The notes beneath the pieces are model-generated. The model had not been told where the DNA came from, made no database searches, and was given only the letters and a program-made list of their open reading frames with translations. A DNA stretch of 34,621 nucleotides from Candidatus Magasanikiibacteriota bacterium. Its GTDB lineage: Bacteria > Patescibacteriota > Patescibacteriia > Magasanikbacterales > GWA2-37-8. Made by a program: the position numbers and the translations under genes. The stretch covers positions 1-34,621 of the forward strand of contig JACRFW010000041.1 in assembly GCA_016234265.1 (NCBI GenBank), given 5' to 3'. Positions 11,143 through 34,621 of this stretch are shown piece by piece (positions within the stretch are counted from its first letter, which is position 1; each line of letters starts with the position of its first letter).

Positions 11143-11620
11143 CGAAAAAATTTTTGCTTATATTGACGCCGCCAATCTCCACAACGGTGTAGCTGAGCTT
11201 GGATGGCGATTAGAGTATCAACGTTTCCGTATTTGGCTGAAAGAAAAGTTTGATGTCGTAAATGCTTATTTGTTTATCGGTTTTCTTCCCAAAAATAAAA
11301 ATCTCTACACCTATCTGCAGGAAGTGGGCTTCATTTTAGTCTATAAAGAAATAAGTTATGACGGCACTGGGAAAGTAAAAGGAAATTGCGATGCCGCTTT
11401 GGTGTTAAAGGCGGCGGTAGATTTTTACGAACGCAACTTTACTGAAGCGGTTATTGTTTCTAGTGATGGAGATTACGCGGAACTTGTAAATTTTCTTAAG
11501 GACAAACAGTCTCTCCGCATGGTTATATCACCAAGCAACAAATGTTCGTATTTATTGCGAAAACAGAATATACCTTTGTTGTATCTAAATACGCAACGTG
11601 GTAAATTAGAGCATAAATAA
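11132..11620 (+). CDS. NYN domain protein (LabA/DUF88-like, PIN-fold nuclease)
   Basis: Protein of 162 aa with the features of NYN/LabA proteins. These are an N-terminal AYIDAANLHNG (first acidic metal ligand, D12), a central GNCDAALVLKA, and VSSDGDYAELVNFL (acidic residues of the second metal site) at about 110-123. NYN domains adopt a PIN-like fold and are predicted metal-dependent RNases. The first codons lie inside the duplicated alaS start, so the gene probably arrived with, or was captured by, the rearrangement. A stem-loop terminator follows directly. The substrate is unknown. Confidence 0.8.
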   Translation: MHSNEKIFAYIDAANLHNGVAELGWRLEYQRFRIWLKEKFDVVNAYLFIGFLPKNKNLYTYLQEVGFILVYKEISYDGTGKVKGNCDAALVLKAAVDFYERNFTEAVIVSSDGDYAELVNFLKDKQSLRMVISPSNKCSYLLRKQNIPLLYLNTQRGKLEHK

Positions 11621-31278: not shown

Positions 31279-33471
31279 TTATTTTTGTGTGGCAATCCAC
31301 TGAGCGAGCTTATGCGGCTCTTCAAACCGTTTCGCATAATTCGGGTTGCCCATAGTAACTATAATATGCCGTTTCTTGGTTTTTTTAGATTCAATGAGCA
31401 TGATAAGCACCGCGTTCGCCTCTTCAGTATAGCCTGTCTTGGTCGCGAGGATCTTGTAGCCGCGTTTTCCGGCCGGGTACAGGGCAAAGATTTGATTAGT
31501 ATTTTTTAATGTTTGAGCAGTCGGGCGTTTCTTGGTAGTTTTTCTAAATATATACGTCGGACGAGCCAGCGCGTCTTTGACAGTTTTGTCTGTGAGCACC
31601 TTAGTGAAAATTTTGAGCAGATCTCTCGGCGTTGATTTGTTGCGCTCGTCTAACCCGGTCACGTCAGCAATGGTGGTAAAATCAGCGCCCCAGGCGTCCA
31701 GCCGAGCATTCACTTTCTGAACAAACTCAGATTCTTCTAAACCTGTGCTTTGGGCGATCATACGGGCAGCGGAGTTGACCGAGCCCACTAACATAGCATA
31801 GAAAAGATCCTTGTTTTTGGCAATATCGCCGTCTTGGAGTTTGAGCGGGTTTTCATCCGTAGCGTAGCGGTCTGTTTCATAAGCAGTGGTTTTGTTCAGA
31901 TTCAGATCTTGATGGAGCGCCTCGTAGGCGGTGAGCAGTTTCGTAAGCGAAGCAATGGGCCGCCGGGTATCAACATCTTTTCCGGAAACTATTCGGCCGC
32001 TCGGGTATTCCGCAATTACATAGGCGGGGAGGGTGGTCTTGCCGTAGAGATCGGTTACCGGCGTGGCGTTGTCGCCGAGGTATTTATTTTTTGCGGAGGT
32101 AAAATCTTTATTCATGAAGAGCGGCTTGCCGAGCGGGATATTTAAAAGCGACAGCATAGCCACCGGCACAATATTTGAACGTTTGTACCCCAGTGCGATA
32201 AAAGTATCATCGTCCGCTATGGGGCGCTTCGCTCCGTGGTCAATAACATAGACAATAGAGCTATCTTTGGCGCGCAGCAGGGTGCCATCGGAAAAGACTA
32301 CCGGTTCATTGGCAGTAGTATATTTGGCCAGCTCTTTAAGCTTGTGTTTTTCCACGCGCAGATTTTTGTAGTTCGCGTCTATGACAGCCTTATCCAAAAT
32401 AGGGGAGAGCACATCGTCTTTCAAGAGATAGTAGGCCGCCGCGTCAGTGATTTGAAAAATAATTCCTTGTGGGGCGGTGGTGGAGGCGGTAATGGTGGAG
32501 CCAATGGCGTAGCCGGCCAGTTCTGTATCCGCTACGTCAATGGGCTCATCGGGATTATAGCCAAGCTTGGCTACTACTTCATCCGAGGCAAAAGGACGAA
32601 GGGTGTCATAGTCAAGCAAATATGTTTTTGTTGAAGTTTTTAAAAGAGAATAATTGGGGAAAGAAATTTCCGCTCCGAGCGTATAATTCATTAAATCAGT
32701 CTCACTGGTCAGAAGAGCGATTTTAGGGTCCACTCTGGTGATAAGAGCAGTTTTGTTTTTGAATTGGCGTCGTTTTCCTTCCTGAATAAGCCAGTAGGTT
32801 GTGTTATCGGTGGTGAGGAGCGTCCCATTTGGGTACACCTGCTCAAACCAAGTATTCCAAATGCGCCAAAAATTTTTGTTACCATGCAAATGCGGGGTGT
32901 AGGTGTACAAAAATGCCGTGGCCCAGCTCTGCGGCGTCACGTCTTCACCGTCAATGCGGATGGGCGTGTCTTTTTTCTTTACGATCGTCTTGTCTTCATT
33001 GTCGTAGTACCAACGCATAATGCCAGCCGACCCGTCTACTTGTTTTCCAAACCCTTTATATTTCATCACTTTCGGATCGTCCATACTGCAGGAGTCGCAC
33101 ACGGCATAGCCGGTCGCCCAATCCAGTTGTTTTTGGGTGGGGGTATCGTCGGTAATGAGGCTTTGTTCTTTTTGCAAAGTCACCAAAAGAAATTTTGGGT
33201 TGACTTTGTAGAGTTGCGCCGCATTATAAATAATATCCGAAGCCATCTTGGTCATTCCGTTCGCGTCTTCGGCCACTAAGTTCCGCAAGTAGCTCCCCTT
33301 ATCGTCAAGAAATTTTTGGATATCAGAGCTGGTCCAATTCTGGTAGTCCTGCAGTTCCGGATCAGAAATAATGAAGTGGGGATTGAAGTCGGCTTGCGCA
33401 AAAACAAAAGCAGGCTCAAAAAATAGCGGAGCGAGAAAACCCGTAAGTAGTAATAGTTTTTGTAGCTTCAT
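31279..33471 (-). CDS. Fusion of a muralytic-like domain, repeats and an S11 D-Ala-D-Ala carboxypeptidase
   Basis: Protein of 730 aa from ATG 33471 (a TTG nine bases upstream is in frame but less likely). A signal peptide covers about 1-26 (ending VFAQA). Residues about 35-210 hold a lysozyme-like domain of the secreted-glycosidase type (WTSSDIQKFLDDKGSYL, LYKVNPKFLLVTLQKEQSLI, DGSAGIMRWYYDN). Residues about 215-450 contain about four repeats of the pattern G-T-L ... YLI-G-RRP ... LGY. The C-terminal S11 domain has SxxK (SLTK, S508 and K511), SVN and KTG motifs, so it should trim peptidoglycan stem peptides. It heads the minus-strand operon after an extended -10 promoter. Confidence 0.85.
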   Translation of the reverse strand: MKLQKLLLLTGFLAPLFFEPAFVFAQADFNPHFIISDPELQDYQNWTSSDIQKFLDDKGSYLRNLVAEDANGMTKMASDIIYNAAQLYKVNPKFLLVTLQKEQSLITDDTPTQKQLDWATGYAVCDSCSMDDPKVMKYKGFGKQVDGSAGIMRWYYDNEDKTIVKKKDTPIRIDGEDVTPQSWATAFLYTYTPHLHGNKNFWRIWNTWFEQVYPNGTLLTTDNTTYWLIQEGKRRQFKNKTALITRVDPKIALLTSETDLMNYTLGAEISFPNYSLLKTSTKTYLLDYDTLRPFASDEVVAKLGYNPDEPIDVADTELAGYAIGSTITASTTAPQGIIFQITDAAAYYLLKDDVLSPILDKAVIDANYKNLRVEKHKLKELAKYTTANEPVVFSDGTLLRAKDSSIVYVIDHGAKRPIADDDTFIALGYKRSNIVPVAMLSLLNIPLGKPLFMNKDFTSAKNKYLGDNATPVTDLYGKTTLPAYVIAEYPSGRIVSGKDVDTRRPIASLTKLLTAYEALHQDLNLNKTTAYETDRYATDENPLKLQDGDIAKNKDLFYAMLVGSVNSAARMIAQSTGLEESEFVQKVNARLDAWGADFTTIADVTGLDERNKSTPRDLLKIFTKVLTDKTVKDALARPTYIFRKTTKKRPTAQTLKNTNQIFALYPAGKRGYKILATKTGYTEEANAVLIMLIESKKTKKRHIIVTMGNPNYAKRFEEPHKLAQWIATQK

Positions 33472-33488: not shown

Positions 33489-33541
33489 GATTTTGCCACG
33501 TTTTACCAGCTGACTGAAAAAATCCAAAAAAATCCAGACGG

Positions 33542-33570
33542 TTGACAAATAGTGATTTTTTTGCTACCAT
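33542..33570 (+). promoter_or_regulatory. Promoter of the lipoprotein gene
   Basis: TTGACA (33542-33547) and TACCAT (33565-33570) are 17 bp apart, giving a transcript start near 33577 and a leader of about 50 nt. The leader contains AAGGAG (33616-33621) 6 nt before the ATG. It diverges from the carboxypeptidase promoter. Confidence 0.75.
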
Positions 33571-33627
33571 CATTAATGATTCGGACATTTCGTTCTCTCT
33601 CTTCTTCCCTATGAAAAGGAGCTGCTG

Positions 33628-34290
33628 ATGAGCGCGATGAAGTACGTCTGTGGTCTCTCCACTCTTTTGCTCTTGTTTAGCCTCGCGGCCTGTGGTGAAC
33701 CGGAGGTGGGGGTCTACACCCCTGCTGACGGCGGTGTCGGTGGTTGCACCGCGGTTCACCAGGATGCTGGCCCCGACCAGCCCAACGCTGGCACTTCAGA
33801 CGCCGGAGAGTCGGCGTTCTGCAGCTCGCAGATCGCCTGGGCTCAGCTCACGGTGACGAACGCCTCTTCCACGGAGGTCACCGGTCAGCCGGGGTCTGAC
33901 GAGGCGATCGCGGAGGTGTTCGTGACGGCTGCGCAGGGCCCGCATTGCGTGCATCGCAGCGTGGCGAGTCAGGTCGCGTTCCAGTTCCGCCAGATGTCGT
34001 TCCCCGTGACGAACTGGCATCTGGAGGCCAGCACGGGGGAGGTGCTTGCGACCACCCCCTGTTCCACTGATGCACACTCTGACGGGCTGTACGTCACCTT
34101 CTGCCCCTCGAAGGAATTATCCCCCGGGGAGAGTTTCCGGGCTCAAGTGAAGGGCAACACGACTGCAGCTCATCGAGGTAGTACGCTGGAATGGTTCGTC
34201 AGGGCGGGCTACGCTCTGGACAAGGAGGACGGCTCCGGCTTCTACATGGTCGGCACTCCGACCCCTCCGGTGACTCGTTCATACCGATGA
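33628..34290 (+). CDS. GC-rich putative secreted lipoprotein of unknown function
   Basis: Protein of 220 aa. The signal sequence (residues 4-21, CGLSTLLLLFSLAA) ends in a lipobox with C22 followed by G, so it should be lipid-anchored. A flexible, glycine/aspartate-rich stretch follows (about 30-60), then a domain of about 150 residues with five further cysteines and beta-strand character (VTNASSTEV, QVAFQFRQMSFPVTNWHLE, FRAQVKGNTT). No family was recognised. The codons are strongly GC-rich compared with the neighbouring genes, and the ribosome binding site is unusually good for this window. Recent transfer is plausible. The style (DAG-type linkers) recalls lipoproteins of large-genome bacteria such as myxobacteria, but that is only an impression. 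Confidence 0.7.
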   Translation: MSAMKYVCGLSTLLLLFSLAACGEPEVGVYTPADGGVGGCTAVHQDAGPDQPNAGTSDAGESAFCSSQIAWAQLTVTNASSTEVTGQPGSDEAIAEVFVTAAQGPHCVHRSVASQVAFQFRQMSFPVTNWHLEASTGEVLATTPCSTDAHSDGLYVTFCPSKELSPGESFRAQVKGNTTAAHRGSTLEWFVRAGYALDKEDGSGFYMVGTPTPPVTRSYR

Positions 34291-34378
34291 CAGAGTGAAC
34301 AGATACGGCTTCCTGCCCGCCGCTGAGTGGCAGGGAATAGCGGACTGGATCATCTCTTTCCGAGCGTGGTCGTCCGTA

Positions 34379-34445
34379 CGCGGTCGTCCATGCTCACTTT
34401 TATTACAAGATTGTTTGTCTTGCCGTAAGAGTGAGGACGATCGTG
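34379..34445 (+). ncRNA. Long stem-loop after the lipoprotein gene
   Basis: Three stacked helices: 34379-34388 with 34436-34445 (10 bp, two G-U pairs), 34393-34402 with 34426-34435 (10 bp, one G-U pair) after a 4-nt bulge, and 34406-34410 with 34418-34422 (5 bp). This is too long and too AU-mixed to be a simple terminator. The direct repeat GGTCGTCC occurs at 34368-34375 and 34382-34389. It may be the 3' UTR of the lipoprotein mRNA or a separate RNA. Confidence 0.5.
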
Positions 34446-34455
34446 ATATTTTTTG

Positions 34456-34487
34456 AAAAACACAGCCACTATATAGCTGTGTTTTTT
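34456..34487. terminator. Bidirectional intrinsic terminator
   Basis: AAAAACACAGC (34456-34466) pairs with GCTGTGTTTTT (34476-34486) around a 9-nt loop, ending in a run of six T. The A/T arms allow function on both strands. Confidence 0.8.
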
Positions 34488-34491
34488 GCTA

Positions 34492-34581
34492 ACCCAGGAA
34501 ACCTCGCACGGAGGTCAAAGCAGGTGAACACATTAGTACCACGAAATTGACGCTTTGACCGGAGTGCGAGGATGAATGGGT
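34492..34581. ncRNA. Three-tier hairpin with symmetric internal loops
   Basis: ACCCA (34492-34496) pairs with TGGGT (34577-34581); CCTCGCAC (34502-34509) with GTGCGAGG (34564-34571); GGTCAAAGC (34513-34521) with GCTTTGACC (34552-34560). The helices are separated by symmetric internal loops, GGAAA opposite ATGAA and GGA opposite GGA, and the apical loop has 30 nt. All base pairs are perfect. Such regularity suggests a functional RNA or protein-bound DNA element. I do not recognise the family. Confidence 0.55.
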
Positions 34582-34587
34582 CCTTGC

Positions 34588-34621
34588 CAGCTTGCGACAG
34601 TCCCGAGACTGTGGCAAGCTG
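34588..34621. repeat. Stem-loop cut by the window end
   Basis: Positions 34588-34602 pair with 34607-34621 (15 bp, one mismatch) around a CCGA loop. The bases just outside (TTGC) suggest that the stem continues past the window. It follows the three-tier hairpin by six bases and may belong to the same element. Confidence 0.5.

Follow-up and report, generated by a model that had tools for sequence, protein, structure and literature searches.

The window, a stretch of 34,621 nt, is the whole of contig C23 of a Candidatus Magasanikiibacteriota genome (913 kb in 55 contigs, 98% complete), and the contig ends at 34621. Close to this end a single GC-rich gene reads divergently from a native dacA-like gene, which is found in 24 of 25 genomes of the family, and the GC content shifts sharply near 33600. 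The GC-rich gene is followed, up to the last nucleotide of the contig, by four stem-loops. The features of the locus, and those elsewhere that are discussed with it, are collected in Table 1.

Table 1. Coordinates of the features discussed. Positions without a prefix refer to the window; folding z scores are relative to shuffled sequences.
Feature	Position	Strand	Remarks
dacA-like D-alanyl-D-alanine carboxypeptidase	31279..33468	-	PF00768, E 3e-29; native left neighbour, divergent to the lipoprotein gene
Sigma-70-type promoter, TTGACA-17-TACCAT	33542..33570	+	10/12 matches; TG before the second hexamer
Ribosome binding site, AGGAG	33617..33621	+	Recognised by sequence
Orphan GC-rich lipoprotein gene	33628..34290	+	220 aa; lipobox LAA-C22; low-complexity linker of D, A, G and P, then a beta-rich domain
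Stem-loop 1	34379..34445	+	67 nt, near-perfect; z -7.3; lies 3' of the coding sequence, in the untranslated part of the lipoprotein mRNA; unique
Stem-loop 2	34455..34487	+	Intrinsic terminator of the lipoprotein gene, AAAAAACACAGC..GCTGTGTTTTTT; z -5.1; also the IS insertion site
Exact repeat of C4:12137-12276	34482..34621	+	140 nt; assigned to a multi-copy IS200/IS605-type element as its left end, truncated at the contig end
Stem-loop 3	34492..34581	+	z -5.0; assigned as main left-end hairpin of the IS; three tiers: basal tier, stem CCTCGCAC/GTGCGAGG, apical stem GGTCAAAGC/GCTTTGACC
Stem-loop 4	34588..34621	+	z -6.0; assigned as second left-end hairpin of the IS, in the tnpA 5' leader
IS copy on contig C4	C4:12145-12812		About 668 bp; tnpA alone, no tnpB
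GC-rich single orphan genes, this genome	L024:17886-18650; L024:3984-4370; L038:9497-9877; L042:3121-3687; L043:12766-13251; L011 (C4):11290-11493		Native genes flanking
5'-leader stem-loops of orphan units	G020:C1 about 57500-57560; L043:12500-12670; L011:11540-11660		
SAM riboswitch (RF00162)	C4 (L011):11754-11856	-	Upstream of the GC-rich orphan gene 11290-11493

The lipoprotein gene and its transcription unit

The GC-rich gene encodes a protein with a signal peptide and a lipobox, FSLAAC with Cys22, the latter being a pattern match only. Structure prediction gives beta strands in a low-confidence model (mean pLDDT 45). The product is probably anchored at the cell surface; its function we can only infer. 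The composition of the gene (GC 0.63, GC3 0.75) lies outside that of 105 long ORFs drawn from 292 kb of this genome, for which GC3 is 0.56 ± 0.07 with a maximum of 0.68. The original prediction had called the composition unlike that of the neighbouring genes, which this comparison bears out, and the gene is probably of foreign origin, from a GC-richer source. The promoter and ribosome binding site that had been ascribed to the gene are likewise present, with one such promoter found where 0.3 were expected in shuffles, and the protein has, as had been suggested, no recognised family in Pfam, NCBIfam or PHROGs.

We found no homologues of the lipoprotein in 25 genomes of the family, in 380 genomes of the phylum or in a GTDB pattern scan, and none in IMG/VR, plasmids, phages or the PDB. 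Because the GTDB scan reaches close relatives only, the status of the gene as an ORFan is provisional. Like horizontally acquired ORFan lipoproteins in general, it is compositionally foreign, a single gene and without a family; unlike them, it belongs to a large class that occupies exchangeable sites in Patescibacteria (see below), and for such a class of exchangeable ORFan lipoproteins no precedent was found in the literature searched.

All four stem-loops described earlier are present behind the gene, each of them stabler than its shuffles (z -5.0 to -7.3). The 334 nt from 34288 to 34621 as a whole fold with a z score of -8.4, and 0 of 100 shuffles are as stable. Rfam gives no hits in the window at the gathering score, and on contig C4 no match at the corresponding hairpins. 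An integron cassette (attC) was considered and rejected, as neither the RYYYAAC nor the GTTRRRY core motif occurs on the + strand of 34288-34621. Stem-loops 1 and 2 are part of the transcript of the lipoprotein gene. A consensus promoter, one GC-rich gene, a 3' untranslated region holding the strong stem-loop 1 and an intrinsic terminator make up what is very probably a self-contained orphan transcription unit, and an IS200-type element has its left end directly behind the terminator.

Stem-loops 3 and 4 in an IS200/IS605-type element

The last 140 nt of the window and their counterpart on contig C4 are identical at 140 of 140 positions. The C4 copy continues: its stem-loop 4 ends 5 nt before the ATG of a 149-codon tnpA, which is followed by a right-end hairpin and the end of the element, GGAGGAGGTCATT. 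The protein matches PF01797 (E 1.5e-26) and NF033573 transpos_IS200 (99 bits, cut-off 55) and carries HVH at 61 and a downstream Tyr at 126, the layout of a single-domain Y1 HUH transposase. Subterminal hairpins are present at both ends of the element (left end z -7.0, right end z -4.8) and are kept in relatives. Judged from these sequences, a multi-copy insertion sequence of the IS200/IS605 type has its left end in stem-loops 3 and 4; by comparison with C4, the tnpA and right end of the window copy would lie beyond the end of the contig. Contigs C16 and C40 finish with this right end in other surroundings, and C4 starts with it; in all, the copies in the genome have two left and three right flanks. 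Being multi-copy, the IS explains why contig C23 stops within it, and the overlap of exactly 141 nt shared by C16 and C40 would fit a repeat that breaks a k-mer assembly. Two more contigs start within another Y1 transposase gene (C26:5-148 and C53:5-148), i.e., they also break at insertion sequences.

Related transposases occur at 12 loci in a scan of GTDB genomes and in 17 places in the 380 phylum genomes, nearly all of them in Patescibacteria. About 20 tnpA relatives in other genomes, at 47-85% identity, have the same left end and no lipoprotein. This common left end consists of AGGAAACCCCGC, a variable insert, GCGGGGATGAAT and then a separate hairpin that ends a few bases before the tnpA ATG. 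In an alignment of 12 relatives pairing reaches 99% in the main stem, where 5 of 8 pairs have changed at both partners, and 83% in the basal tier, where this holds for 4 of 4; when the partner columns are shifted by 1-3 the pairing is destroyed. For the basal tier the four bases left of AGGAAAC were tested against the four after GATGAAT, and the 16 distinct combinations contain 41 complementary cells, compared with 26.9 ± 2.9 for shuffled partners (0/20000). In the IS200 group a short fixed target, kept at the left flank without duplication, pairs with a guide in the left end. Such a guide-target reading of the four-base pairing is attractive, but the four bases left of AGGAAAC are identical among copies in one genome, as is more sequence to their left, and may be internal to the element. 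No empty insertion site for the IS was found.

With the IS200 group of the IS200/IS605 family the element shares its Y1 HUH transposase, the presence of tnpA only and the subterminal hairpins at both ends. A second hairpin 3' of the main left-end hairpin is also known from IS608, ISDra2 and IS605 (PMC5934647), and a structured tnpA 5' leader is a further likeness to the family (PMC12594629). The clade differs from the IS200 group in that it lies directly behind intrinsic terminators, that its main hairpin is long (about 90 nt in the present element) with a variable apical part, and that a four-base basal tier outside the AGGAAAC foot covaries with the four bases after GATGAAT. TnpA-REP and its REPs likewise combine a transposase of the Y1 superfamily with intergenic palindromes (PMC6006769), but the present transposase reaches only 22.8 bits for NF047646 (cut-off 80), and the element, present in several copies, is bounded by two IS-type ends.

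For the mode of action of the two hairpins, IS608 and Salmonella IS200 would be the closest models. A tetranucleotide beside IS608 is read through its pairing with bases of the element, in which the main hairpin likewise has a second one behind it (PMC5934647). The tnpA leader of Salmonella IS200 contains a stem-loop that sequesters the ribosome binding site (PMC12594629). We infer from these models that the left-end hairpins would serve as the substrate recognised by the single-strand Y1 (HUH) transposase TnpA in transposition, and that the second of them, lying in the tnpA leader, would exert translational control, as does the Salmonella stem-loop that blocks translation. Salmonella IS200 similarly has a 5'tnpA RNA, whose stable stem-loop lies in the 5' portion of the tnpA transcript (PMC12594629), but the likeness is one of structure.

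Insertion behind intrinsic terminators

The two copies in this genome each begin right after a T-tract, behind terminator hairpins that differ in sequence (window 34455-34495; C4 12120-12150). The same arrangement is found across the clade: a terminator lies at most 16 nt from the element in 20 of 22 distinct left flanks, and a strong one in 19 of the 22, with the qualification that the 22 elements are relatives of one another and do not all count as independent cases. Stem and element are 6-10 nt apart in most cases and never more than 16. At random positions in the same loci a terminator is found in 5.9% and a strong one in 1.9%. The T-tract alone is no explanation, because only 21% of tracts of at least 5 T follow a terminator hairpin and 7.9% a strong one. 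Taken as sequence evidence, these positions argue for an insertion preference of the IS clade 3' of intrinsic terminators. Such a preference is apparently undescribed; we found no description of terminator-directed IS200 elements in the literature searched, which is not proof of absence. Group IIC introns also insert beside intrinsic terminators. However, Rfam finds no intron RNA in the window or on C4, and a DNA transposon is an element of another kind.

Alternatively, the pattern could reflect survivorship, insertions elsewhere being lethal in a compact genome, with no preference for terminators on the part of the transposase or a guide. The genomes are indeed small, and surviving insertions alone are seen. 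However, survivorship predicts scatter across whole intergenic regions rather than the narrow spacing from the terminator stem, and T-tracts generally lie behind a terminator hairpin in just 8-21% of cases. We therefore regard survivorship as doubtful, though it deserves to be taken seriously. That a single-strand transposon might recognise terminators is a testable idea, and doing so would allow it a harmless existence in a compact genome.

The 67-nt stem-loop, the borders of the gene and the supposed module

Stem-loop 1 has no second copy in its own genome, in the family or in the 380 phylum genomes, and its location in the 3' untranslated region is the only explanation that we have for it. 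A near-perfect palindrome of 67 nt could also be a degenerate miniature element, for example an IS-derived one, that is independent of the gene. In one relative (G009, L016:3850-3945) a miniature element that lacks tnpA and consists of both ends, left and right, of this IS family does adjoin the remnant of a GC-rich gene. However, the 67-nt stem-loop has neither a second copy in the genome, family or phylum sample nor the AGGAAAC and GATGAAT feet of this IS family, which makes such an origin improbable.

The original prediction had itself raised a chimeric join near 33500 as a possible objection. In an assembly chimera foreign GC-rich DNA would have been fused to a Patescibacteria contig at this point, and the abrupt GC step near 33600, the draft state of the assembly and the nearby contig end are all compatible with such an error. 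However, the DNA to the right of the lipoprotein gene is an IS identical letter for letter to that on the native contig C4, so that both borders of the gene are native and a chimeric join is very unlikely. Similar GC-rich single genes moreover lie inside five other contigs of the same genome, with native genes flanking, and GC-rich single genes with native flanks are found in relatives too.

The lipoprotein gene and the four stem-loops had been proposed to be one protein-plus-RNA module, transferred together and acting together, and their adjacency, almost gapless pairing and strong folding do suggest this, but we give the idea next to no credence, since stem-loops 3 and 4 occur without the lipoprotein on C4 and in about 20 other elements, always before an IS200 tnpA, a terminator separates them from stem-loop 1, and the lipoprotein and stem-loop 1 recur nowhere (in the collections searched for the former, in the 380 phylum genomes for the latter). 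The comparison with other genomes that had been recommended thus gave no lipoprotein, and stem-loops 3 and 4 only without it. Because stem-loop 1 is unique, no recurrent protein-plus-RNA module is demonstrable.

The lipoprotein unit and the left end of the IS are very likely two independent neighbours. The main claim is an ordinary one: what had been taken for the RNA half of a module is the end of a transposon. What had been ranked as the best candidate here for an undescribed system is to that extent a false candidate for a new protein-RNA system and can be removed; contig ends at insertion sequences can mimic one.

GC-rich orphan units in the genome and its relatives

Six more GC-rich single genes, flanked by native ones, occur in the 292 kb sampled from this genome, with GC3 from 0.82 to 1.00, the latter over 161 codons in the gene at L043:12766-13251. 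Most of the six have a recognisable promoter of their own. In G022, where native GC3 is 0.32, several orphan genes have values of 0.73-0.90. The list of orphan units was partly chosen by composition and promoter score, and its size is an estimate, not a census. None of the 10 units tested reaches a Pfam or NCBIfam cut-off, just two units are alike (neighbours in G022), and a clear lipobox is present in 4 of 18 units examined, the window lipoprotein included. The mean promoter score is 9.9 for orphan units and 8.8 for native genes (P 6e-4), which is weak evidence, since the list was partly filtered by promoter.

The congeneric genomes G020 and G022 are syntenic at about 75% identity but are set apart by many intergenic insertions of single genes. 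At one intergenic site there are two orphan genes that are unrelated to each other, and several sites are occupied in one species only. The site upstream of dacA holds other unrelated genes, in the same orientation, in G018, G014, G020 and G021, and in many relatives a gene that we take, from reading its translation, to be clpB lies directly upstream of dacA. This points to fast turnover of orphan genes at preferred sites, and such intergenic sites may form an exchange system for surface and secreted proteins. The wider picture, of an IS200 clade homing to terminators together with a large, fast-exchanged class of GC-rich orphan units at preferred intergenic sites, is put forward tentatively, as a possibility somewhat short of an even chance. 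No description of GC-rich orphan units in Patescibacteria was found in the literature searched, which again does not prove absence. Some of the swapped genes encode secreted or lipid-anchored proteins, and the question raised is why GC-rich orphan genes keep being exchanged at the same sites in reduced, probably host-dependent bacteria. Both the IS200 clade found next to terminators and the exchange of single-gene orphan units are worth following.

The C-terminus of the protein encoded at L024:17886-18650 (WTLCAGSRGSDGGVPSASCCGYRF...) presumably resembles the variable region of target proteins of diversity-generating retroelements. The orphan gene on C4 has a SAM riboswitch upstream (Table 1), and in several orphan units long stem-loops occupy the 5' leader between promoter and ribosome binding site.
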